DNA of 32,622 bases, taken from NCBI GenBank assembly GCA_022768325.1, contig JALEMI010000100.1, positions 1 to 32,622 on the forward strand, given 5' to 3'. Positions 9,296 through 21,646 of the stretch are shown here, in pieces. A program made the position numbers and the translations under genes. Below the pieces are notes generated by a model. It ran no database searches. It was not told where the DNA came from and was given only the letters and a program-made list of their open reading frames with translations. This DNA comes from Bacteroidales bacterium. Its GTDB lineage: Bacteria > Bacteroidota > Bacteroidia > Bacteroidales > Marinilabiliaceae. How positions within the stretch are numbered: the first letter of the stretch is position 1; each line of letters begins with the position of its first letter.

Positions 9296-10045
9296 ATGCG
9301 TGTTTTCTCCATGCCCGGCTATGGCGAAGTGACAGTGACCGTGCGTAGCAGTGCGAGGCGGATGGTCTTGCGCATTGGTGCGGATATGCGTCTGCGCGTA
9401 ACGGTGCCGTTTGGAGTAGGCGACGACGAAATACGCAAGTTCATAACGCAAAACGCCGAGGGCATCTCTCGCGCAATTGAGAAGGTGCGAGTGAAGCAAC
9501 CACCCAATAGCAATGCCCTTTTTGCGCCCGAAATGGAGTTCAGGACGCGCCGTCATAAGCTCAGAATGATGCCCACCTCGCGAGACAATTGTTATCACGC
9601 GACGATTGGCAACGAGTGGCTCAGCATCACGTACCCGCCCAATACGAACACCGAAAGCCTTAGATTTCAGAAGTTTGTGGCCAAAGCCATCGGAATGACC
9701 TACAAGCACGAAGCCTTAGACTTCCTGCCGCAGATGGTTGACCACTTCGCAAGGGCGCATGGGTTGAAATATGACCATGTCGACCTCCGTGACATGGGTT
9801 CTCAATGGGGTAGTTGCTCTTCAACGGGGAGGATATGCCTAAACGTCCAGCTGATGAAACTGCCCGACAGACTGATAGAACTGGTTGTGGCGCATGAACT
9901 TACGCACACGCTGCACATGGACCACAGCAAAGCTTTCTATGCCGATTTGGATAGATTCCTTGGCGGGCGGCACGACATCTTGAACGCCGAGCTAAAGAAA
10001 CACAACACGATAGTGACGCCGGCGGACTCTTACGATGAGGCGTAG
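9296..10045 (+). CDS. YgjP-like (DUF45) zinc metallopeptidase-fold protein
   Basis: 249-aa cytoplasmic protein of the YgjP/DUF45 family, related in fold to SprT/WLM metallopeptidases. The N-terminal half carries the beta-rich RSSARRMVLRIGADMRLRV stretch typical of the family. The zinc site is HELTH at 200-204 plus His210 in HMDHSKAF, so the HExxH ligands and the distal histidine are all present. QWGSC upstream is a further family signature. No signal peptide is seen. The true substrate of this family is poorly defined. The ATG lies 3 bp after the pdxB stop, indicating translational coupling. Its last 16 bp overlap the 3' end of comF on the opposite strand. Confidence 0.88.
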   Translation: MRVFSMPGYGEVTVTVRSSARRMVLRIGADMRLRVTVPFGVGDDEIRKFITQNAEGISRAIEKVRVKQPPNSNALFAPEMEFRTRRHKLRMMPTSRDNCYHATIGNEWLSITYPPNTNTESLRFQKFVAKAIGMTYKHEALDFLPQMVDHFARAHGLKYDHVDLRDMGSQWGSCSSTGRICLNVQLMKLPDRLIELVVAHELTHTLHMDHSKAFYADLDRFLGGRHDILNAELKKHNTIVTPADSYDEA

Positions 10046-10770
10046 CCCAACGTGGCAAGCCCGAGCTTCACGCCCTCAATCTCAAGCAGTTTTTCGAGAC
10101 AAGCCTCGCTCGTCGCCCCTGTTGTAAAGACATCGTCGACGAGCAGGAGCCTCATGCCCTTGGCGCGTTGCGCACCGCGTCCGAGAGAGAAGACGTTGCG
10201 GACGTTGAGGTGGCGTTGCTCGGCGTTGAGATGCGTCTGCGTGGGTGCGGCACGGCGGCGGAGAAGGACATCGGTCATGACCTGTAAGCCCGTGACCTCG
10301 GCAATCCCGCGGGCAATGACCAGGCTCTGATTATATCCGCGTCGCCATTCGCGTCGCCAATGGAGCGGGACGGGAATTAGGGCGTCATAATTGTCGGTGA
10401 AGCCTGCCGCAGAGGCTCGTCGCCCCATCTCACGCCCGAGGTCTGTGGCGACATTGCGATTGCCCGAATACTTGAATTGGTGGATTAGTCGGCGGAGCGT
10501 CTCGCCCTTATGGAAATAGTAACAGCTGAAAGCGGAGACGAGCAGAATCCGCCCGTCCATACGCGTCTTGACTGGATTTTGTGGCCATGCCTCGAAGCTC
10601 GTGACGGGAAGCCTGTCTAAGCATAGGCGGCATACGCCCACCTCGGAGCTATTGAGGGCGGCACCGCACTCAGCGCAATAGGCCACGGGCGCGAAGACCT
10701 CGGCAGCTCCGAGAGCCATCCTTTTGAGCCACGCCCAGGCTTGTCGTGTTGTGCTCTTGTGGCTTGGCAC
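10030..10770 (-). CDS. comF: ComF family phosphoribosyltransferase-fold protein
   Basis: 246-aa ComF homologue. In Gram-positive competence systems ComF acts in the cytoplasm on incoming single-stranded DNA; in Bacteroidetes its role is unproven. A four-cysteine zinc knuckle lies at C32, C35, C47 and C50. The PRTase core shows LIPVPLHWRREWRRGYNQS at 131-149 and the PRPP loop VDDVFTTGAT at 211-220, both intact. The chosen ATG at 10770 is 21 bp after the stop of the SpoIIE sensor gene; a second start at Met18 (10719) would give a length closer to many homologues. It is probably cotranscribed with the sensor gene. Its 3' end overlaps the YgjP-type gene tail to tail. Confidence 0.9.
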   Translation of the reverse strand: MPSHKSTTRQAWAWLKRMALGAAEVFAPVAYCAECGAALNSSEVGVCRLCLDRLPVTSFEAWPQNPVKTRMDGRILLVSAFSCYYFHKGETLRRLIHQFKYSGNRNVATDLGREMGRRASAAGFTDNYDALIPVPLHWRREWRRGYNQSLVIARGIAEVTGLQVMTDVLLRRRAAPTQTHLNAEQRHLNVRNVFSLGRGAQRAKGMRLLLVDDVFTTGATSEACLEKLLEIEGVKLGLATLGYASS

Positions 10771-10791
10771 GTCCCCCGTTCCTCCTCTGAC

Positions 10792-13700
10792 CTATTGCTT
10801 AGTCTTGTAGCGGAAGCCCATCACGATGACATCGTCAACGGCACCTATGTTGTGCCTCCACTTGTCGTACGTGGTGTTGAGGTGTGCCATCTGGTCCTCC
10901 ATAGGCTCGTCGGCAATCTCCTCCAGCATAGTTGTGAAGCGTTTGGTGGAGAATTTGAGGGCGTCGTCCTCGCTGATTGTGGGATTCGGGACGCTTGGGT
11001 CGTCCTTGGCGGGGTCGGCACCGAGCTGGTCGACGTAGCCGTCGGAGCAGAGGTAAATGCAGTCGCCGTCTTGGAGTTGGGACGTCGTCTCGACAAACTC
11101 GTTGTCGTTCCATACGTCGCCAATGGCGCGGCGTGTGCCCTTGAGGGTAGAGATTGTGCCGTGGCGGACAATGAAGATGGGGCGTTTGGCGGCGGCGGAA
11201 ATCATGATGCCCGTAGACATATCGACATCAATGATTGCGCAGTCCATGCCGTCGTGCGTCTCTACGCTTTGGTTCTTGTTGAGCGTCTGTCGGACCTCCT
11301 TGTCGAGGCGTTCGAGGAGCTTGGCGGGGTGGCGCAGCTCGGGTTCGCGTGTCGCCTCGTTGAGGATGGTTGTGCCGATGAGGGTCATGAACGCGCCTGG
11401 TACACCGTGGCCTGTACAGTCGGCGCAGCATATCAGGGCGTGGTTGTCATACATATTGAACCAGTAGAAATCGCCGCTGACAATGTCGCGAGGCCTGAAG
11501 AGCAGGAACGAATCGGCAAAAGGCAAGTCTTGCAGGCTTGTGCGCGAGGGGAGAACGGCCGTCTGGATACGGTTGGCGTAGGTAATGCTGCCGAGGATGT
11601 CCTTGTTCTTGCGCTCAATTTCGTTCTTCTTGTCGTTGATTTCCTTTGTCTGCCTCATCACCTCGTCTTCAAGCTCTTGCTGCCTCTCCATGAGCTTTCG
11701 CTCCCTCCACTTGGCGAAGGCGCGGATTCCGGCGAGGAAGAGGAGAATGGCTATGACGATGACCCACCACATTTTCCAGAAAGGCTTGTCGATGTGGATG
11801 GGGATTCGGAGAGGGCGTTGGCTTACGATGCCCGAGCTATTGAAAGCCCTGATATTGAGGATGTAGTCGCCGTCGGGGATGTAGTCGAACTCCTTATGGT
11901 TCTGCGTCCCGAGGGTGGACCATTGGGGTTCCGTCTCGTCGCCCTCCCTTTGCATCCAGTACTCGTACGTGACGTTGGCCTGGTCTTTCATGCAGATGCC
12001 GACAAATTCAAAAGAGAGCTTGTCGGGGTCTCCCCTGTAAGGGTAGGGGAGGCTGATAGGCTCGAAGATGTCGTGCTTCTTGCCTGAAATTGTGACGTTG
12101 GTGAGGTTGATTATTGGTGCGACGCCGTTGCGCTTATCGTAGGCGCTGATGTAGTGGATTACGCCCTTGGTGGTAGAGAACCAGAGGTCGCCATTGGGCG
12201 CTGAGTGTGCGCTTGTGAACTCGTAGTCGATGCCATTCTCGGGGCCGAAAATCCTCATGTTTCCGTTGGAGAGGTCGATGCAGCTGAGGCCTGGCTGGTG
12301 GCAGACCCAGATGTGCCCACTGCCGTCGCGAGCCAGCTCGTAGCAATAGTTCTTTGCGAGACCGTCGTTGGTTGTTATGGTGACGATGGAGTCATTGCTT
12401 GTGCAGAGGATTCCGTTGTTGACGGTAGAAATCCAGAAACGCCCACGGTCGTCGGCAACCATGCCGGCGACATCGACGGGGACCTCGGCGAGGCGGTGGA
12501 TGTCGAACGACTCGGCGTCGTAGAGCATGGCGATGCCGCCGTCCTTAGGACCTATCCAAACCTGACCATCGTTGTCGAGGGTCACGAAGTTTATGAAGTT
12601 GTGCTGGAGGCCGTCGGCGGTGGTGTAGAAACGGTACAGGTTCTTGTGTTGGAGACTGTATGTCAGGAAGCCGCCAGCCGTTGCGGCGTAGAGGCACGTG
12701 TCGTCAATGGCGAGGTCGTTGATGGAGAGCTGGTTGGTCTGCGCTGTCGGGATGTCGAGCTTGCGATAGCGGGTGTCGTTGGCTGTGCGGTAGTAGATGC
12801 CCGCGCTTCGGGTGCCGACGTATTGGGTGTCGCCCTTGCGGGAGAAGATGATGCTCGTGATGTCGTTGCGGGCGGGCAGACCGTTTTGCCTGTCGAAGAG
12901 CTCAAAGTTGGACATACACTTGGTGTCCATGTTCAGCAGGCCGTCGTTTGTACCCATCCAAAGGCGTTCGCCGTGGAGGTATGTGGCGAAGACCCTGGTC
13001 TTGGGCAGGCCTATGTCGGCAAGGTTGTAGAGTGCGAAATAGTTGTTAATCCATGCTATGACGCCGCTGCCGTATGTCGCGAACCAGAAGATACCCTCCC
13101 TGTCGACCATGATGTCGGCCACGTAGTCGTTGTCGAGACCGTTCTCGCTGTTCAGAGTGAGAGTCTCGACGTAGTCGTTGGACTCGGGGCGATATTCCCA
13201 CTCCTTGACGCCGTTGCCCCACGTACCGAGGTAGAGGTTGCCGGACTCGTCCTCATAGAGGGCGCGGATGTCGTAATTGGGGATTATGCCGTTGGTGCAG
13301 GCTCTGCCGCATTGGTTGAGGATTCTTGCGCCTTTTGTTGGCGAGTAGCGGAATACGCTGCCGTCGTCTTGGCAGATCCAGAACTCATTGCCCGTGCGGG
13401 TGGGCGTAATAATGTTGACTGCGGAGGCGGGGATGTCTGTAATCTCCTCGGGGGCTTGCGGGTTACCCTCGGCATCGACCTTTACCATGAGCAAGCCGTC
13501 CGTTGTACCGACAAGGAGAATCATGGAGTTGACGGCGCAAATGGAAGTGTAGATGCGGCTTCCGAAGACCTCCTCGTCGAAGAATGTCGTCATCTTGTAT
13601 TCGGCATCAATCTTGACGATACCCATGTTTTGCTCCACGGCCCAAATGTTCCCCCTGTCGTCGAGGCACATATCCTTGATTGGGGCGGACATATCGGGGT

Positions 13701-14046
13701 GGGCGGGAATCTTGATGAACCGTTGCCCGTTGTTGTAGGAGAAAGTGCCGTTGCCGTGACCGCACCATAGCTGCCCGTCGGTGTCGATGAGCATCCGCGA
13801 GATGTAGTTGTCGGAGAGGGAATCTCGGACGGAGTAGTTCGTGAAGCGCGTGCCGTCGTAACGCGAGAGGCCCTCGGCCATGCCGACCCAGACGAAGCCG
13901 TTGTTGTCTTGCACGACGCTGTATATATAGTTTTGGGGCAGACCTTGCGCGTTGCCAAACTTCGAGAGGTTGAAGTTTTGGGCCACTGAGAGGATCGTGG
14001 AGCATAGCAGAGCCGCTAACGCCGCCGCAATTTTTTTAGTAGTCAT
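10792..14046 (-). CDS. Membrane sensor: double beta-propeller, Y_Y_Y domain, SpoIIE/PP2C phosphatase
   Basis: 1084 aa. Residues 1-22 are a signal peptide. About twelve propeller repeats of the form GxxWxGTxxG(L/V)xxY (for example GFVWVGMAEGLSRYDG near 50) make two periplasmic two-component-regulator-type propellers to about 670. A Y_Y_Y domain (about 672-745), a transmembrane helix (about 757-776) and a charged coiled coil (about 785-825) follow. The cytoplasmic end is not a histidine kinase but a SpoIIE-type PP2C serine/threonine phosphatase. Its metal-binding acidic residues are all present: GDFYW near 858, DCTGHGVPGAF near 876, SDG near 1000 and DD near 1070. By architecture it senses an extracytoplasmic ligand and dephosphorylates a cytoplasmic partner, classically a STAS-domain anti-anti-sigma protein; none is encoded in this window. 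It lies downstream of the T9SS module and 21 bp before comF. Confidence 0.92.
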   Translation of the reverse strand: MTTKKIAAALAALLCSTILSVAQNFNLSKFGNAQGLPQNYIYSVVQDNNGFVWVGMAEGLSRYDGTRFTNYSVRDSLSDNYISRMLIDTDGQLWCGHGNGTFSYNNGQRFIKIPAHPDMSAPIKDMCLDDRGNIWAVEQNMGIVKIDAEYKMTTFFDEEVFGSRIYTSICAVNSMILLVGTTDGLLMVKVDAEGNPQAPEEITDIPASAVNIITPTRTGNEFWICQDDGSVFRYSPTKGARILNQCGRACTNGIIPNYDIRALYEDESGNLYLGTWGNGVKEWEYRPESNDYVETLTLNSENGLDNDYVADIMVDREGIFWFATYGSGVIAWINNYFALYNLADIGLPKTRVFATYLHGERLWMGTNDGLLNMDTKCMSNFELFDRQNGLPARNDITSIIFSRKGDTQYVGTRSAGIYYRTANDTRYRKLDIPTAQTNQLSINDLAIDDTCLYAATAGGFLTYSLQHKNLYRFYTTADGLQHNFINFVTLDNDGQVWIGPKDGGIAMLYDAESFDIHRLAEVPVDVAGMVADDRGRFWISTVNNGILCTSNDSIVTITTNDGLAKNYCYELARDGSGHIWVCHQPGLSCIDLSNGNMRIFGPENGIDYEFTSAHSAPNGDLWFSTTKGVIHYISAYDKRNGVAPIINLTNVTISGKKHDIFEPISLPYPYRGDPDKLSFEFVGICMKDQANVTYEYWMQREGDETEPQWSTLGTQNHKEFDYIPDGDYILNIRAFNSSGIVSQRPLRIPIHIDKPFWKMWWVIVIAILLFLAGIRAFAKWRERKLMERQQELEDEVMRQTKEINDKKNEIERKNKDILGSITYANRIQTAVLPSRTSLQDLPFADSFLLFRPRDIVSGDFYWFNMYDNHALICCADCTGHGVPGAFMTLIGTTILNEATREPELRHPAKLLERLDKEVRQTLNKNQSVETHDGMDCAIIDVDMSTGIMISAAAKRPIFIVRHGTISTLKGTRRAIGDVWNDNEFVETTSQLQDGDCIYLCSDGYVDQLGADPAKDDPSVPNPTISEDDALKFSTKRFTTMLEEIADEPMEDQMAHLNTTYDKWRHNIGAVDDVIVMGFRYKTKQ

Positions 14047-14084
14047 TCGTACAAGTATGAGGGGTCCGTTAATTCCAATTACGA

Positions 14085-14119
14085 CCGACGCGTCTCGTTT
14101 TTAGGGCGTGACGCGTCGG
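14085..14119. repeat. Perfect 10-bp inverted repeat upstream of the SpoIIE sensor gene
   Basis: CCGACGCGTC (14085-14094) and its exact complement (14110-14119) flank a 15-nt spacer. It lies 39-73 bp upstream of the sensor start and 48 bp after the stop of the preceding gene. There is no T-tract after it on the minus strand, so a simple intrinsic terminator is not well supported; an operator, an RNA stem that limits read-through, or a processing site are alternatives. Confidence 0.6.
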
Positions 14120-14166
14120 CGTATGCTGTATATTATAAAACTCTTGAGACAGCCAGTTTTGCCGTT

Positions 14167-15138
14167 CTATTTCTTAGGTTTGACACCGATAGTGTACTTG
14201 TATTTGGGGATACCGCCGATAGGAACGGAGTAGAAAGGCATCAGCTCGCCGTATTGGTTTTCGAGGAAAATGACGACGTTGTTGTTCTTCAGGGGCTTGT
14301 TCTTGAACTTAATCATTTGGATGTCCCAGGAAGTGTTCTTCTCCTCGTCGGCCACTTTGTGGGTGCTGGTGACCCACTCGTTATTGTCGCTGACCTTCAT
14401 CATCTCGCCGTTTTTGGCCACCGAGATGATGCGGAGCATACCGTCCTTATCCCAGTCGAAGTTGCTCTGTTTGAGGGAGATAGTCTTGTCGTCGATGTAA
14501 GGGTAGATGTGCGAAATTTCGGAACCACTGTCGTGGAGTCGGAACTTGTACTTGAAGTAGTAGGCGAAAGCGCCGTCCACCTTTACGTTGTCGTCCTTCT
14601 TGCGCGAGAGGAAGAGGCGGTACATATTGCCGTCGTCTCCGTTGAGGCCCTCAATGACGAGCTTGAAGGTGCGTCCGCCAAACTCGGGCAGGTCCTCGCC
14701 CTCAGAGGGGTTGAAGGGGCCGAAGGTATACCACTTGTCGTCGGTTGTAGGGTCTTGTCCGAAGGTCTTCGTGGCGATCATGGTGCCGCTTTTGAATTTT
14801 CCTTTGACGTTGCTTTTTTGGGCGTCTTTGTTGGAGCAGGCATCTTTACCACCGTAGATCGAGAAGCGGGTCTTGGTGTTCCAGTCGCCCCTCAGCTCAT
14901 CGTTCTTGCCGCCGCAATCGGGGTCGAAAACCCTGATGTAGATAGGCGTAGAGCAGTCGGTGGGGATGGAGAAGAAGATGATTTGCACAAAGTTGTCGTC
15001 GCCCCATTCGGTCTCGCTGTCTTTTCCGAATGTCATGAGGAACGGGATGTTCTCATCGTCGCCTGGGACAGGCTGTGCCAAAGCCGTGGTGAAGCTCAGC
15101 AGTAGTGCCAAGGCGGAAATAATCCGTAGGGATTTCAT
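14167..15138 (-). CDS. Secreted protein of unknown function in T9SS-type cluster
   Basis: 323 aa with a signal peptide (1-21, LAQ) and no further membrane helix, lipobox or C-terminal sorting domain. I do not recognise a named family with confidence. The mature part looks beta-rich, with IYIRVFDPDCGG, TRFSIYGGKDACS and GGRTFKLVIEGLNGD giving it the appearance of tandem beta-sandwich domains. The two early cysteines in the DCSTP and DPDCGG segments, and a later one, could form a disulfide in the periplasm. It is the fourth gene of the run that begins with the type B CTD protein, 70 bp after the PD40/PKD gene, and precedes the SpoIIE sensor. An accessory role in surface export or display is inferred only from position. 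Confidence 0.75.
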   Translation of the reverse strand: MKSLRIISALALLLSFTTALAQPVPGDDENIPFLMTFGKDSETEWGDDNFVQIIFFSIPTDCSTPIYIRVFDPDCGGKNDELRGDWNTKTRFSIYGGKDACSNKDAQKSNVKGKFKSGTMIATKTFGQDPTTDDKWYTFGPFNPSEGEDLPEFGGRTFKLVIEGLNGDDGNMYRLFLSRKKDDNVKVDGAFAYYFKYKFRLHDSGSEISHIYPYIDDKTISLKQSNFDWDKDGMLRIISVAKNGEMMKVSDNNEWVTSTHKVADEEKNTSWDIQMIKFKNKPLKNNNVVIFLENQYGELMPFYSVPIGGIPKYKYTIGVKPKK

Positions 15139-15208
15139 GTTGAACTCGCGTGTTACTTAGTAATCCAATGCTTTCCTTTTACGGCGCGGGTGGGCGTGGG
15201 TTTCTTTT

Positions 15209-16606
15209 TTACTCCACAATCACAGTTGTCCACGTGGCGCGCCGTTCATTTTCATTTCTTGCATCAATCGTGCCACACTGAATTTTGTACGTGCCTCTTT
15301 TATTGAAAACTGTGGTTGCGTTTTGTCCTTTCACCTTGTCGCCGTTGCCGAAATCCCAGTAGAACTGTCGCGGGCGGAAGTCCGGGAGGCCTTCGGTGTC
15401 GGCTTTGAAGGTGACGGGTTCGCCGGCCTTAATGCGCTTAGGGACAGTGATTCCGACCTGCTGAGGCTTCGTTATTTCGAGCTGATATTGCGCGAGGGAG
15501 AACATCTCCTCGCCCGAAGTCTTGTCGAGGATGCTGAGCTCGATGTCGTAGGTTCCGAAGTCGGCGAAGCAGTGGTCCACCTCAAGTCCGATGGCGGACT
15601 GCCCGTCGCCGAAAGCCCATTTGCAGACGAACTCCGTAGTGTCGTAGTTTTCGGCCGACGCCTCGTAGAGGGTGTAGCAGAAGGTGACCGTTTCGAGCGA
15701 GTCGGCATTCTCGAAGGTAGGGAACGTGCGATGGAAATAGTAGATGTCGTCCGTCCCTTGGCGGTTGGACGTGAGGAATCCCCACTTCTCGTCGTCGGAA
15801 TACCACGCGCCGTAGTCGTCCCTCATGCTGTTGAGCGCGTCGTCGAATTTTTGAGGCTCGGTGAAAGAGCCGTCGTCGGCGCGGAAGGTGTAGTAGATGT
15901 CGAGGCCTTGGCTGTCGTCGCGTCCGTTGGAGGAGAAGAAAATCTTGCCCGAGGAGTGGACGTAGGGGGCGGTCTCAATGCCCGGGGTATTGACTTTCGG
16001 CCCCATGTTGACGGGGTCGCTCCATCCGAAGGAGGTGCGCGTGCAATAATATAGGTCAACTCGCCCCTCGCCGCCTATGGCATCGGACGCGAAGACGAGG
16101 AGGCTGCCGTCGGGCGAGATTGAGGCCATGCCGTTGCTGCACTTCTCGGGCAGGCCTGTCATCTTCATGGGTTCGCTGTTGGCATCCTGGTAAATCTGGA
16201 TGTCCATGGGTGCGCCGCGCAGTCCGACGGTCTCCATATCGTTTTGGCTCACGTAGGCCACATTTTGAGGGTCGAAAGTGACGGAGACCATGTTGAAGCC
16301 GTTGCGTCCGCCGCCGAAGAAGGGGCGCGGGCGGCCTGAGGGTCGTCTGTTTTTGAGCTTGACCCCGAAGATTTGGAAGAGGTGCTGGCCTCGCTGGTCG
16401 AAATATGTCTTGCCGAGGCTGTATTTCTGGTTGCTTGCGAAATAGAGCGTCGAGTCCAGCACAACGGGGCAGATGGCGGAAGCCTTCCCGGCGGGGCTTA
16501 TTCTCTCAATCTCAATATCTTGCGCAAATGATGTCGTGAAGGCGGAACTCAAGAGCATTGAGCTGAGCATTGCCGCCAAGGATACTCTTTTTGTCGTCAT
16601 TGTCAC
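15209..16606 (-). CDS. Exported PD40 beta-propeller plus two PKD domains
   Basis: 465 aa. The signal peptide is residues 1-29 (FAQ); Met3 is an alternative start. Residues 30-295 contain WD40-like/PD40 blades recognisable as SPDGSLLVFAS, SSGKIFFSSNGRDDSQGLDIY and SDDEKWGFLTSNRQGTDDIY, the pattern found in TolB and in the T9SS proteins of the PorE type. Two PKD-like beta-sandwiches follow (about 300-385 with WAFGDGQS, about 386-465 with WDFGNGDK), and the protein ends there. The usual C-terminal OmpA peptidoglycan-binding domain of comparable T9SS-linked PD40 proteins is absent. It lies 14 bp after porP, so it is very likely cotranscribed. The domain call is firm; function as a periplasmic or surface scaffold for the module is inferred. 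Confidence 0.85.
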   Translation of the reverse strand: MTMTTKRVSLAAMLSSMLLSSAFTTSFAQDIEIERISPAGKASAICPVVLDSTLYFASNQKYSLGKTYFDQRGQHLFQIFGVKLKNRRPSGRPRPFFGGGRNGFNMVSVTFDPQNVAYVSQNDMETVGLRGAPMDIQIYQDANSEPMKMTGLPEKCSNGMASISPDGSLLVFASDAIGGEGRVDLYYCTRTSFGWSDPVNMGPKVNTPGIETAPYVHSSGKIFFSSNGRDDSQGLDIYYTFRADDGSFTEPQKFDDALNSMRDDYGAWYSDDEKWGFLTSNRQGTDDIYYFHRTFPTFENADSLETVTFCYTLYEASAENYDTTEFVCKWAFGDGQSAIGLEVDHCFADFGTYDIELSILDKTSGEEMFSLAQYQLEITKPQQVGITVPKRIKAGEPVTFKADTEGLPDFRPRQFYWDFGNGDKVKGQNATTVFNKRGTYKIQCGTIDARNENERRATWTTVIVE

Positions 16607-16620
16607 TCTGCCTCTTAAGG

Positions 16621-17544
16621 TTAGTAAAATCTGGGGCCGACGGCTTTCACCTTATAGATGAAATCGTATTGGAGCGTCAGCTCGTGGCTTCCGCCGCTGT
16701 ACGACTTAAGCGGGCCGAGGTCCATGGTGTATGAGTATGCCACTTTAAATCTCCTGTTTAGGCTATAAGCCAAGCCGGCAGTGGCTTCTTTCGTGGTGCG
16801 GTATGCGGCAGTGAGCCAAATCATGTCGCGCCATATACCTGACGCGCTGATTGTCACCTCGCCCTTGTCGGCTTTGTTTAACGAGGCCATTGCCGATGGT
16901 TGGATGGCGAAGTCGTTGCCAAGCGCGAACCAGTAGCCGCCACAGGCCACGTAGGTGGCATCGCCCGGGGCAAACTTCGTGTCTTTACGCTCAAAGTCGT
17001 TCGTGACGATGAAAGAAGTGGTGCTGATTCCCGCGAAGAAATTGTCGCCATAGAAAGAGGCGCCGAAACCGAGAAGCGGAGCAACACCGGACTCATTCTC
17101 AGCAAAAACCTCGTCTTGCTCATCGATGGTGCGTATCTTGCCCCAATTGAGCGAGCGGAAGGCTACGCCGGGTTGGAGGGCGAGGCCGAGCCATGCGTTG
17201 CGGGTCACCTTTGTGCGGTAGCCTATGGTGGCCAAGAGGCCGGCGTTGGTGGTCTGGTGGAGCGTCTGGTAGTAGAGGCTCATTCCCGTCGCCAGCTTCT
17301 CTTTGCGCAAGGGCGTATTGGCCGTTAAGATTGCGCTTGCGGGCGTGTCGTCAATGGCGGACCATTGCCGCCTAACGCCGCCGAAGAGGCTCAGGGCGTC
17401 GCGGCTTCCCGCAAAGGCGGGGTTGACGGCGAAATAGTTGTGGATATATTGCGAGACGATAAGTTCGTTTTGTCCGCGGGCGGATGCGAATGTGGCCATG
17501 ATGGCCAAGGCCGCCGACAACATTCTGAACGTCAGGTTCTTCAT
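16621..17544 (-). CDS. PorP/SprF family T9SS outer-membrane protein
   Basis: 307-aa outer-membrane beta-barrel protein. The signal peptide is 1-25 (ARGQ). The family hallmark follows at once: QYIHNYFAVNPAFAGSRDALSLFGGVRRQW, here split over residues 32-61. The chain continues as alternating amphipathic strands with many aromatic residues and ends RFY, as expected for a barrel. PorP/SprF homologues are needed for secretion or surface attachment of cargo bearing type B C-terminal domains, and are often encoded next to their cargo. Here the cargo gene lies directly upstream with a 22-bp gap, which fits that pairing. Confidence 0.93.
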   Translation of the reverse strand: MKNLTFRMLSAALAIMATFASARGQNELIVSQYIHNYFAVNPAFAGSRDALSLFGGVRRQWSAIDDTPASAILTANTPLRKEKLATGMSLYYQTLHQTTNAGLLATIGYRTKVTRNAWLGLALQPGVAFRSLNWGKIRTIDEQDEVFAENESGVAPLLGFGASFYGDNFFAGISTTSFIVTNDFERKDTKFAPGDATYVACGGYWFALGNDFAIQPSAMASLNKADKGEVTISASGIWRDMIWLTAAYRTTKEATAGLAYSLNRRFKVAYSYTMDLGPLKSYSGGSHELTLQYDFIYKVKAVGPRFY

Positions 17545-17566
17545 TCTCGTACTGTCTTGTCTGTGG

Positions 17567-19180
17567 CTACTTGGTTCGTTTTATGGCGAGGGTCTCTTTG
17601 ACGGTCTTGATGCCTTGCCCTTTGAAGAAGTAGACGTAATAGCCGTCGTCAACGCCTTCTGCCTTCCAGTTGTTGCGGTAGTTTGTCGCCTCGAAGACCT
17701 TTTTGCCACGACGGTCTACAACGGTAATCATGTTCTCGGGAGGGAGGCCCTCAATGATTAGGCGGTCGTTATGTCCGTCGCCGTTGGGGCTGAAGCCATT
17801 AGGATAGCGGAGCGGCATGGTGTAGTTCACCGTCACGAAGGCGGAGTCTGACGGGCAGGCGGCGTAGAAGTGGTGGCGGCCCATGTCGTCGTCATAATCC
17901 TCCTCGTCGGCTGTCTCGATGACGTAGTAATCGACTGTGGACCACATTGTTGACGAGGCTGATGCCTCGTGTGTCGTGCCGTATATTCGTGCGTCGATGT
18001 CCTTGCTCTTCTCGGCGACGCCCCATTTAAAGGAGTGGTCCTCGTCGGTGGGGATGACGCTGAGGCGCGTGTGCGTCTCTTGGCAGGCGATGGTGTCTGT
18101 TGGGAATTGCGGATGCGGCTTGCGGTCCAGGACGGTTATTTCGCCGTGCGTAGTCTCCTCGGTGGCTTTGCATCCGTTGCGGTCAATCACTTCGGCAACC
18201 GCGATGAGCGAGGCCTCCGTAATGTGGAGGTTGCGGAACTTGCCTGTCCCCGCAATGTCTTGCGTCGTCTGATGGCCTGTGTTCAGTGTGACGGTGAAAG
18301 GGGCGTGGCCCGCGAGGCTGAACTCTGCGTCGATGTAGGAGTTCTCGTCCTCGTCAATGGACGAGCAGATGAGGATTGGCTCATCGCTGGGGAAGCCGTC
18401 GCCGCGGTAGAGGTTGACCTCTGGACTTCCGTAGAGGGTGAAGTCGCGGGCTATGGATGCGGAGCAGAGGCCGCCGACGGTCTTGACTATCGTGACGCGA
18501 ATGGTCTTGGCGTCGGTCTGCAGGTGGCCGTTGGCGTAGTGGGGTGTTGAGAGTTCGGCGGAGCTGCCGTTGGGGATGATGCTAAAAGTCTCCTTATCGG
18601 CCACAATCCATCGCCATTTTGAGATGTTGGCCCATGTGTTCTCGGTTTTGATTGTCGCCTCGTAGCCGCAATTGTTGAGGGGCGAGATGACGCTCAGTCG
18701 GTGCGGGTCGTCGTCGGGGAGATTGTCGTCGGCCACGGGAGTGCCGAAGACTCGCCATGTTGTCTGGCCTGAGCCTTTGACGGTTACGGGGACGCGGTCG
18801 AAAGCGGAGTTTGAGAATTGGACATCGACAATCTTGTACGTTATGTCTGCCATTCCGGCCTCTACGCCGCCCGAGACGGAACTGAGGGTGTGGTTGTCAA
18901 TGCGGATGTCGAACCTATTGTTTTTGAGGCTATTGACATCGGTTTGCGCAGTTAACGTTGCGGCCGGTTGGAGCGATGTGCTGTAATAAACTACGAACTG
19001 TGAATATCCGGCGGGGATGTTGTCTACGGAAAGAGACCAATACTCCCCCTCCGTATTGTCGCAAACGCGGATGGTGTCTGCGACGCAAGAGACGCTCTGC
19101 GCCTTGCTCTCGCCGAAACCGATGAGTGTCGCGAATATGGCCGTCATTGCAGTGACGGCTTTTTTAGATATTGTGGTCAT
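17567..19180 (-). CDS. T9SS cargo protein with type B (CHU_C) C-terminal sorting domain
   Basis: 537 aa with a signal peptide (1-28, ESKAQ). The last 79 residues (459-537) are a gliding-motility-associated CTD: YPNGFSPNGDGHND start, a central VVDRRGKKVFE strand, NNWKAEGVDDGYYVYFF, and a basic end KRTK. This domain routes proteins through the type IX system to the cell surface. The body looks like Ig/PKD-type beta domains with paired cysteines, including a cysteine just before the CTD linker (AACPSDSAFVTVNY). No catalytic domain is recognisable, so a surface adhesin or structural protein is most likely. It is the first gene of its run and is followed by porP at 22 bp. The type B domain is confident; the biological role is not known. 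Confidence 0.9.
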   Translation of the reverse strand: MTTISKKAVTAMTAIFATLIGFGESKAQSVSCVADTIRVCDNTEGEYWSLSVDNIPAGYSQFVVYYSTSLQPAATLTAQTDVNSLKNNRFDIRIDNHTLSSVSGGVEAGMADITYKIVDVQFSNSAFDRVPVTVKGSGQTTWRVFGTPVADDNLPDDDPHRLSVISPLNNCGYEATIKTENTWANISKWRWIVADKETFSIIPNGSSAELSTPHYANGHLQTDAKTIRVTIVKTVGGLCSASIARDFTLYGSPEVNLYRGDGFPSDEPILICSSIDEDENSYIDAEFSLAGHAPFTVTLNTGHQTTQDIAGTGKFRNLHITEASLIAVAEVIDRNGCKATEETTHGEITVLDRKPHPQFPTDTIACQETHTRLSVIPTDEDHSFKWGVAEKSKDIDARIYGTTHEASASSTMWSTVDYYVIETADEEDYDDDMGRHHFYAACPSDSAFVTVNYTMPLRYPNGFSPNGDGHNDRLIIEGLPPENMITVVDRRGKKVFEATNYRNNWKAEGVDDGYYVYFFKGQGIKTVKETLAIKRTK

Positions 19181-19260
19181 CAGTGGTGGGATGCCTTATT
19201 CTGTGTGTGGATACGTGTGTTTCTTTTCGGGGCAAAACTGGTGCTTTCCCCCATGTTTCA

Positions 19261-19268
19261 TAAAATTA
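19261..19268 (-). promoter_or_regulatory. Possible -7 element for the T9SS-module operon
   Basis: Minus-strand TAATTTTA is one mismatch from TAnnTTTG and lies 80 bp upstream of the cargo gene start, in an AT-rich stretch unlike its surroundings. No clear -33 element is visible, so this is tentative. Confidence 0.35.
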
Positions 19269-19313
19269 GCTTTTTTTCGTGCTAAAAGAAAAATTATTTT
19301 TCACGCTTACTGT

Positions 19314-20621
19314 TTAGCAGCCCGTGATGCGCTTGTAGAGGTCGAGGGCGTAGAGGTCCGTCATTCCGCTAACGGTGTCGACAGCGCTCATCACCTTGTC
19401 GTAAATTGAGGCCTCTTGCCCAACCCTGTACTGTTCGGGAATGAAGGGGAGCAAGAGGTTGGAATAGTACTGGTCCTGATGCGTCAGGGCCTCCAGGAAC
19501 TTGTCGGTGAGCGTCCCAATTATCTCAAAACCAGAGAGATCTATTTGTGCGACGCTCTGATGACAATATATGTGTTGGATGGCCGTAGAGGCCATTTGGC
19601 CCATGGCCTCCTTGGGTCGTCCTTCGAGATGCGAGATGAGCGAGCCATGGAACGCGCCTTCAAGAATTTGCCCGATATTGGAGCAGAAGATGCGGGCCAC
19701 GCTGCGGACGAGCAGGCCGATGACGAGCGTCCGCATATACGCCACCTGTTCGTGACGGTCGGTGACGTGGGCACAAACATTGTCGAGGCTCTCAAAAGTG
19801 GAGGCGTCGGCATCGGGGTCGAAATAGCTTGTGAAGAGATTGCGGGTCTCGTCGTAGGTGAAGATTCCGAGCCTGTAAGCGTCTTCGACATCCATGGCCT
19901 GATAGCAGATGTCGTCGGCGGCCTCGACGAGGAAGACGAGGGGATGGCGGGCAAAGGTGGAGTGCTCGCTGTCGGTCATGGGGATTTTGAGCGTCTCCAT
20001 GATGCTGAGGAAAGTCTCGGCATCTTGTTGGAAATAGCCAAACTTCTTGACACCCAGCGACGGGCGCGGATACTTGATTATGGAGGCGAGGGCGGGGTAG
20101 GTGAGTGAGAACCCGCCAAGCCGTCGGCCTGCGAAAGTATGGCTGAGGAGGCGGAACGTGTTGGCGTTGCCGTCGAAGTTTTGTACGTCGGTCCGTTGGG
20201 CTTCGGGGAGGTCCTTGATGAACTCTTGTCCACGGCCGTTGAGGAAATAGTGCTGGATTGCCCTCTCGCCCGAATGCCCGAAGGGCGGATTGCCCATGTC
20301 GTGGGCGAGGCAGGCGGCGGAGACAATGTCGCTTATAGAGTCGAGCAGCTCGGCGGGAGCCTCCTTGGCGTCGACGAGCATTTGAGAGACCGTATGCCCC
20401 AGCGAGCGGCCCACCGATGCCACCTCGATGCTGTGCGTCAGTCGGTTATGAACAAAGACGGAGCCGGGGAGAGGGAAGACTTGCGTCTTGTTTTGGAGAC
20501 GGCGAAAAGGCGCGGAGAAAATTATGCGGTCGTAGTCGCGCTGAAACTCAGTGCGCGAGTGTTCTATGCGCGGTGTCTGCCGGCCTGTGCGTCGTGCAAT
20601 GAGCAGTTCTTCCCATTTCAT
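19314..20621 (-). CDS. dgt: Deoxyguanosinetriphosphate triphosphohydrolase (dGTPase), HD superfamily
   Basis: 435 aa from the ATG at 20621. This start was chosen over an in-frame ATG at 20669 because it overlaps the upstream stop codon as ATGA and gives the family-typical MKWEELL opening. The enzyme hydrolyses dGTP (or dNTPs) to the nucleoside and triphosphate, affecting nucleotide pools. The HD metal site is visible: His63 (NRLTHS), His107-Asp108 (CLAHDMGNPPFGHSGE) and a downstream Asp in EAADDICYQAMD. RTEFQRDYDRIIFS and FRRLQNKTQVF near the start are classic family signatures. No signal peptide, cytoplasmic. It is the last gene of a translationally coupled trio with suhB-type and GT2 genes. 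Confidence 0.95.
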   Translation of the reverse strand: MKWEELLIARRTGRQTPRIEHSRTEFQRDYDRIIFSAPFRRLQNKTQVFPLPGSVFVHNRLTHSIEVASVGRSLGHTVSQMLVDAKEAPAELLDSISDIVSAACLAHDMGNPPFGHSGERAIQHYFLNGRGQEFIKDLPEAQRTDVQNFDGNANTFRLLSHTFAGRRLGGFSLTYPALASIIKYPRPSLGVKKFGYFQQDAETFLSIMETLKIPMTDSEHSTFARHPLVFLVEAADDICYQAMDVEDAYRLGIFTYDETRNLFTSYFDPDADASTFESLDNVCAHVTDRHEQVAYMRTLVIGLLVRSVARIFCSNIGQILEGAFHGSLISHLEGRPKEAMGQMASTAIQHIYCHQSVAQIDLSGFEIIGTLTDKFLEALTHQDQYYSNLLLPFIPEQYRVGQEASIYDKVMSAVDTVSGMTDLYALDLYKRITGC

Positions 20622-21646
20622 TTGTCGATGGTGTTGAATGTGTTGAGCTTGTGGGCGTAGCGCCTCCAAATCATGCTGTATGTTCGGACTTCGGGGACCA
20701 CCTCATGGCTGCGCCCGACTTTGAGCGTCGCCCTCTTGCGGAGGCTTTTCCTTATTTGCCACCAGAAGCCGATATGCGCCTTGAGGACTGCCCACGATTG
20801 GCGCACCTCTCCGCCGGCGAGGAAACGGAGCAAGGCGATGCTGTCGATGTTCATGCGGATGACGAGCGTAAGCCACCACGTCTTGTTATTGAGGTTCTTG
20901 ACGAGCATCGTCAAGTTGTTGCGGAAGTTGAGGAACGTCTTGCGAGGATTGCCCTGCGCGAGGGTGGCACCGCCAAGGTGGAACACCTTAGCCCCGTTTG
21001 TCACGGCCACGATGCGCCACCCCTTGTTCCGCATTCGCCAACAGAGGTCAATCTCCTCCATGTGGGCGAAGAAATCGGTATCGAGGCCGCCGAGGCTGAG
21101 GTAGAGCTCACGGCGCGTCATGAGCGCGGCACCGCTCACCCATAGGCAATCGGCGTTGTCGTCATACTGTCCATTGTCCGCCTCGACATTGTCGAGGATT
21201 CGCCCGCGGCAAAAGGGGAAGCCATAGGCATCGAGATAGCCACCGGCAGCCCCGGCGTATTCAAAGCGCGAATGGTCCTTATCGTCGAGCAGCTTAGGCC
21301 CGCAGGCTCCGACAGTCGGGTCGGAATCCATCAGGCTGACGAGCGGCTGAAGCCACCCCTCGGCTGTTGCCACGTCGGAATTGAGCAAGACCACGTACGA
21401 GTGGCCAATCTGTGCCAAAGCGCGGTTATAGCCCTCGGCAAAGCCATAGTTGCGGTCGAGGGCGATGATGCCGACCGAGGGGAACTCGGATTTGAGCATC
21501 TCGACACTGCCATCGGTCGACGCGTTGTCTGCCACGATGACGTCAACTCCGCCCGTGGCATGGCTCGTGGCGATGACCGAGGGCAAGTATTTGCGCATCA
21601 GGTCGCGCCCGTTCCAATTGAGGATTACGACGGCCGTCTTGTTCAT
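20618..21646 (-). CDS. Family 2 glycosyltransferase
   Basis: 342-aa GT-A fold enzyme of the rhamnosyltransferase-like GT2 subgroup. The nucleotide-sugar-binding start AVVILNWNGRD, DNASTDGS at 40-47, the metal-binding NSD at 89-91, SGAALMTRRE and HMEEIDLCWRMR around 195-206 (ED-containing acceptor motif) are all present. A short hydrophobic C-terminal stretch (TWWLTLVIRMNIDSIALLRFL) may associate with the inner membrane. Substrate and acceptor cannot be told from the sequence; cell-envelope polysaccharide or lipid-linked glycan synthesis is usual. The start overlaps the end of the inositol monophosphatase gene by 4 bp, and its stop overlaps the dgt start by 4 bp. Confidence 0.92.
   Translation of the reverse strand: MNKTAVVILNWNGRDLMRKYLPSVIATSHATGGVDVIVADNASTDGSVEMLKSEFPSVGIIALDRNYGFAEGYNRALAQIGHSYVVLLNSDVATAEGWLQPLVSLMDSDPTVGACGPKLLDDKDHSRFEYAGAAGGYLDAYGFPFCRGRILDNVEADNGQYDDNADCLWVSGAALMTRRELYLSLGGLDTDFFAHMEEIDLCWRMRNKGWRIVAVTNGAKVFHLGGATLAQGNPRKTFLNFRNNLTMLVKNLNNKTWWLTLVIRMNIDSIALLRFLAGGEVRQSWAVLKAHIGFWWQIRKSLRKRATLKVGRSHEVVPEVRTYSMIWRRYAHKLNTFNTIDK

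Follow-up and report, generated by a model that had tools for sequence, protein, structure and literature searches.

In Flavobacterium johnsoniae, five operons have been described that encode a type B substrate of the type IX secretion system (T9SS), a PorP/SprF shuttle and a PorE homologue, and static cell-wall anchors were proposed as their products (PMC12618676); six porP-like genes adjoining porE-like genes have also been reported (PMC9143113). In Porphyromonas gingivalis, PorA, a protein with a T9SS C-terminal domain (CTD), acts upstream of PorXY-SigP sensor-kinase signalling through a mediator that is said to be unknown (PMC7712824), and in Pseudomonas aeruginosa residue T68 of SiaC is phosphorylated by SiaB and dephosphorylated by SiaA (PMC7647112). 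Here we describe an operon in a Bacteroidales bacterium of the Marinilabiliaceae (assembly GCA_022768325.1) that lies on contig JALEMI010000100.1, positions 1 to 32,622 (the window, that is, the whole stretch of DNA that was analysed), in which genes for a surface protein (CARGO), a PorP/SprF protein (PORP) and a PorE-like protein (PD40) are followed by those for an undescribed secreted protein (UNK) and a sensor phosphatase (PHOS).

What is new is the UNK family, as a putative hinge between a known T9SS anchor triad and a propeller-PP2C sensor, with SiaB and SiaC completing the line in some relatives. The reading that we favour, at a probability of roughly 45%, is that UNK, in the periplasm, connects a surface protein anchored by PorP/PorE with a phospho-switch of the SiaABC type.

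Architecture of the operon

Handles denote genomes (G; G000 is the window's own genome), loci (L), families (f; f1 is the window's family), genera (g) and contigs (C). The window corresponds to contig C31; the genome to which it belongs measures 2.7 Mb and is 92% complete. The nearest named record found, in a scan of named genomes that gave three loci, is a Bacteroidales metagenome-assembled genome whose title names dairy cattle rectum, with 88% identity in the phosphatase, and the window's genome may likewise be of gut origin.

A first-pass annotation of the window had listed five co-directional genes, and these were recovered in the order it gave: CARGO, PORP, PD40, UNK and PHOS, all on the minus strand, with intergenic gaps of 22, 20, 70 and 120 bp when the ATG start of PD40 is taken. 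It had called the module fused to the phosphatase gene; the genes are adjacent and separate, and the co-directional run is longer than five genes, with dgt upstream and comF downstream. Neither an Rfam scan nor a tRNA scan gave a match in the window. No minus-strand terminator-like site was found in positions 9900-20700, a result that is given no weight because there were fewer sites than in shuffled sequence (5 versus a mean of 11.9).

CARGO (17567..19180, minus strand, 537 aa) is a predicted secreted protein whose C-terminus carries a CHU_C T9SS signal (residues 458-522; PF13585, 6.4e-15, above the Pfam cut-off). Against the type B model TIGR04131 it scores 25.7 bits, under the cut-off of 35, and the type B label given to it earlier therefore rests on CHU_C and on the PorP neighbour. 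PORP (16621..17544, minus strand, 307 aa) is a PorP/SprF outer-membrane protein (TIGR03519, 197.3 bits, cut-off 90.55; PF11751, 9.4e-54), with a PorP/SprF family match of 3.7e-58 in the Pfam and NCBIfam scans. PD40 (15209..16606, minus strand; GTG start at 16606 or ATG at 16600) combines a PorE-like propeller (PF07676) with C-terminal PKD domains (PF18911); the propeller gave partial NCBIfam matches to PorE and CHU_0125, far under their cut-offs.

With its PorE-like PD40/PKD protein, the set of the first three genes resembles the described anchor triad, and these genes encode the same kinds of protein as those of the Fjoh_3952/3951/3950 operon and of the PG1035-PorP-PorE complex of P. gingivalis. 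The pairing of cargo with PorP/SprF had been called known, and cargo-PorP-PorE triads are indeed on record in Flavobacterium (PMC12618676, PMC9143113). The window differs from the F. johnsoniae triad in that UNK and a sensor phosphatase follow and in that PD40 ends in PKD domains in place of a peptidoglycan-binding OmpA domain, for which a Pfam scan of the window's protein gave no match; the counterpart in G104 (L100) carries OmpA.

Components of the T9SS core, whose absence the first-pass annotation had named as grounds for rejection, are present in G000: PorP, PorK, PorL, PorM and PorN are consecutive on contig C90, PorP adjoins a PorE-like protein on C3, and SprA lies on C16 (PorV, PorT, PorU, PorX and PorY were outside the search). 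GldK/PorK exceeded its cut-off in 59 of the 60 family genomes sampled, and SprA did likewise. Co-occurrence with the T9SS was considered as support for the function of the operon and dropped: SprA is found in all 47 UNK-carrying genomes of the class outside the family, but also in 385 of 395 class genomes overall, and with such near-universality its presence is no evidence.

PHOS (10792..14046, minus strand, 1084 aa) has a signal peptide, periplasmic Reg_prop propellers (PF07494), one long hydrophobic segment near residues 754-781 by hydropathy, and a cytoplasmic SpoIIE/PP2C domain (PF07228). In 78 aligned PHOS rows (of which L040 and L060 are one contig), the Asp residues that we take to form the metal site are kept at D859 and D876 in 76 rows and at D1002 and D1072 in 75, the remainder being gaps, one unread residue and one Asn, and the enzyme looks active. 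The sensor half matches the sensor structures PDB 3v9f and 4a2l of Bacteroides hybrid two-component systems (HTCS), and residues 786-1080 match PDB 6k4e (whole-protein E 1.4e-34), which we take to be SiaA of P. aeruginosa. A companion entry, 6K4F, is given for SiaC (PMC7647112). Judged by these matches, PHOS is an HTCS-type propeller sensor joined to a SiaA-like PP2C domain. It shares with HTCS sensors the periplasmic Reg_prop propeller and the single membrane span and stands outside that class by its output, which is PP2C/SpoIIE and not a histidine kinase; it shares with SiaA the PP2C domain with its metal-site Asp residues and differs in the sensor. A Pfam scan of PHOS matched neither a kinase nor a HAMP domain, and its score against the SiaA equivalog model was 194.3 bits, short of the cut-off of 700. 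PHOS is in pieces in L051 (G032) and L151 (G425), where sequencing error and decay are not distinguishable, and a second PHOS-labelled gene follows the first one past UNK in L169 (G620) and L175 (G616).

The UNK family

UNK (14167..15138, minus strand, 323 aa) matched no Pfam or NCBIfam family; the best E-value of a Pfam search with 31 members was 0.26, and a profile search against PDB gave TPR-like chance matches at E 0.12 or worse. The protein has a signal peptide that by eye resembles type I, and is likely periplasmic, because no T9SS signal domain was matched. Mean column identity is 67% across 31 family rows, a conservation far above that of CARGO in the same family. Q22 and P25, at the mature N-terminus, are present in 90 of 91 UNK sequences, the other (L198) being cut N-terminally and unable to show them.

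In 6 of 296 phylum-sampled genomes (seven places), UNK forms the N-terminal part of a long open reading frame that also encodes PKD arrays. Pfam scans of six of these seven distant proteins showed PKD arrays in each; in L104 the stretch that matches UNK is in the same open frame, upstream of the first ATG of that frame. Three of them (L101, L102, L103) have FecR and/or Glucodextran_B proteins as neighbours and form another surface-plus-sensor neighbourhood; in L101, the FecR protein and a dCache-HAMP sensor histidine kinase lie on the side opposite to the operon direction.

Conservation of the gene order

Within the family, 60 genomes were sampled and 43 UNK loci were read with their flanks (40 genomes and 3 second copies). 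Labels of PHOS and PD40 are profile matches at E 1e-3, and a gene labelled PHOS in a contig-cut locus can be a fragment. G043 (L052) was left out of the counts, as its UNK is in pieces through either sequencing error or decay, which are not distinguishable; for 19 other UNK-bearing family genomes flanks were not read for the whole order, and some were read for coordinates only. PHOS was matched in 60/60 family genomes and UNK in 59/60, the one miss being 72% complete. Among the matches listed, the best PHOS match of G000 (2566 bits) stands far above the next (191 bits), and the same holds in most family genomes, with the exception of G014 and G031, where contig ends split PHOS. The full five-gene order was found in 31 of the 43 loci; one more (L039) is cut by a contig end past PD40, and two, both of genus g19, have UNK and PHOS only. 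By coordinates, UNK lies directly before PHOS in 53 of the 59 UNK-bearing genomes, the other six being of the window's own genus.

Across the class, UNK was found in 49 of 395 sampled genomes and 22 of 197 genera; none of the 13 listed genomes that belong to the same order but to a different family gave a match. We read every one of the 52 copies outside the family: PHOS comes next in 42, 2 run to a contig end, and the remaining 8 have no PHOS in that position. The complete five-gene order is kept in 14 of these 52, and 28 of the 42 UNK-PHOS loci do not have it. Over all 95 UNK loci, PHOS is next in 76, with overlapping genes at 22 of these 76 junctions. In every one of the 17 loci without PHOS (contig ends excluded), the gene directly upstream of UNK matches the PD40 profile over its C-terminal PKD part. 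Outside the family, a gene labelled PD40 can match the PKD part only, as in L164 by Pfam and in L172, L178 and L180 by profile range. From these two counts, UNK is the constant member, retaining its export neighbours, its phosphatase neighbour or both.

FastTree trees of UNK and PHOS have similar main groups, with exceptions: f59, f65, f92 and f96; f91, f94, f73, f8 and part of f74; and f1, f9, f64 and the rest of f74. In the PHOS tree, L162 and L188 are labelled as paralogs although adjacent to UNK, owing to rules on distance and UNK length, and L151, with PHOS in two pieces, is missing. The f74 loci without export genes fall with the quartet-bearing f1, f9 and f64 in both trees and are therefore easiest read as having lost three export genes while keeping UNK and PHOS. 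Three f91 loci (L164, L166, L175) keep different company in the two trees.

Additional copies of these genes were seen in a few loci. L097, L098 and L099 (G051, G057, G027) are diverged second CARGO-PORP-PD40-UNK copies with no phosphatase beside them. In L143 and L144 (G603, G674), PHOS is followed by another gene labelled CARGO, about 1180 aa long, and in L144 a weakly PorP-like gene comes after it; in these loci the sensor may have export genes to either side.

SiaB and SiaC as candidate partners

The SiaB and SiaC sequences of G000 were compared with 2808 open reading frames cut from all loci. In 8 of the 42 UNK-PHOS loci outside the family (L147, L148, L151, L171, L176, L188, L190 and L191, from f73, f94, f91, f88 and f74), SiaC lies directly after PHOS or one small gene later, an adjacency akin to that of the P. 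aeruginosa SiaABC(D) switch (PMC7647112). Since L171 and L190 are from one genus and have identical SiaC, these amount to about seven independent loci. In the four loci where it was scanned (L151, L176, L188, L190), the small intervening gene encodes a DUF6272 (SiaB-type) protein, and L171 has a gene of the same size with the same motif; in L148 the gene past SiaC has no Pfam match. Six of the eight belong to the tree group made up of f91, f94, f73, f8 and part of f74. In three f59 loci (L160, L182 and L197), SiaC stands several genes upstream of UNK and was not counted as linked. The acceptor residue aligning with T68 is kept in all eight linked SiaC (5 Ser, 3 Thr) and is Thr in the four SiaC of G000.

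Of 60 family genomes, 59 contain SiaC. There are four SiaC matches in G000, two of them with SiaB adjoining, at loci away from the window's operon. With four SiaC matches and two STAS proteins in this genome, SiaC appears the best, not the sole, candidate substrate of PHOS. One SiaB-SiaC pair (L183, 8807-9775, contig C27) is flanked by genes for a hexapeptide-repeat protein and a LytTR response regulator, and in L200 and L201 there are again SiaB-SiaC pairs preceded by a gene of about 300 aa.

Proposed mechanism and alternatives

The gene linkage is established; contacts, signal and output are what we infer from it. CARGO would cross the outer membrane via SprA and be held by its cognate PorP, by analogy with F. 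johnsoniae and P. gingivalis, and the PorE-like PD40/PKD protein would hold the CARGO-PorP complex on the periplasmic side. UNK may then bind both the PKD part of that protein and the propeller sensor of PHOS, reporting assembly, occupancy or load of the anchor, as linkage and the UNK-PKD fusions suggest; the bridge to PKD is proposed because UNK adjoins a PKD-bearing gene and distant UNK domains are fused to PKD arrays. PHOS would dephosphorylate a SiaC-type Ser/Thr switch protein phosphorylated by a SiaB-type kinase, to which homology and the SiaB/SiaC genes downstream in relatives point. We hold more tentatively the specific version in which the CTD surface protein is a receptor, UNK is a new periplasmic bridging family in contact with both the anchor PKD domains and the propeller sensor, and a SiaABC-type Ser/Thr switch provides the output.

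Ordinary neighbourhood, by chance adjacency or operon economy, might be suspected from the housekeeping genes dgt and comF in the same run, but it is highly improbable: the five-gene arrangement is not a chance neighbourhood, because the five genes keep their order in many genera and in further families, whereas the genes outside them differ from genus to genus. Several observations count against the coupling that we propose. Homologous clusters lacking the sensor, which the first-pass annotation had named as grounds for rejecting an export unit coupled to signalling, do occur, as 9 of the 43 family loci have the first four genes without an adjoining PHOS; six of these are in the window's own genus and have PHOS on another contig, and the other three are additional copies, the first copy in each of those genomes having its sensor. 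In the opposite direction, f59, f65, f92, f96, part of f74 and genus g19 have UNK and PHOS without export genes alongside in the flanks read. Partner exchange happens, since the PHOS of two f60 loci, although adjacent to UNK, groups with paralogs and L176 is placed differently in the two trees. Neither SiaB nor SiaC lies beside PHOS in any fetched f1 locus, the two STAS proteins of G000 are rival substrate candidates, and an AlphaFold2 model of UNK from two sequences had a mean predicted local distance difference test score of 34.1 and was unusable. What stands of the earlier proposal of an export unit coupled to signalling is the conserved arrangement; the tighter link is that of UNK with PHOS.

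This link could also mean that UNK and PHOS are a free-standing envelope sensor reading something else, with the export triad in the operon for co-expression only. Such a sensor would fit the 31 of 76 UNK-PHOS loci in which no complete export quartet is seen (in two of these, L039 and L198, a contig end truncates the upstream side), the penicillin amidase, alpha/beta hydrolase, TPR and thioredoxin-like proteins among the scanned neighbours in quartet-less loci, and the much stronger conservation of UNK than of CARGO within the family. It fits poorly with the PKD-bearing gene that UNK stays beside in all PHOS-less loci and with the distant UNK domains in one frame with PKD arrays, and we regard it as rather unlikely. 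Lower still do we place control of CARGO expression or export by PHOS, as feedback via STAS/anti-sigma proteins or SiaC in place of a report on anchor state. The STAS proteins and the position of PorA upstream of PorXY-SigP (PMC7712824) would agree with it; the linked partners in relatives are SiaB and SiaC, a weak objection, as STAS and sigma genes were not searched in those loci.

Significance

The statement that joining such genes to a PP2C phosphatase was not a described arrangement agrees with the literature search: no paper was found that pairs type IX secretion with SpoIIE, in a search that left subscription papers mostly outside and did not cover type IX secretion with SiaC, and the sole match for type IX secretion with PP2C compares PorX with RssB. 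A close parallel is PorA-PorXY-SigP, which shares a CTD surface protein feeding an inner-membrane signalling protein; the families differ, PorY being a histidine kinase. How an outer protein of Bacteroidota reports to the cytoplasm is open, and the PorA study posits a further factor that links PorA to the inner-membrane kinase (PMC7712824). The operon offers candidates for each step, a secreted family without a name, and a link of T9SS surface anchoring with SiaABC-type switching. If the proposed coupling is true, it would be an outside-to-inside signalling line in Bacteroidota that runs from a T9SS-exported surface protein to a Ser/Thr phospho-switch.

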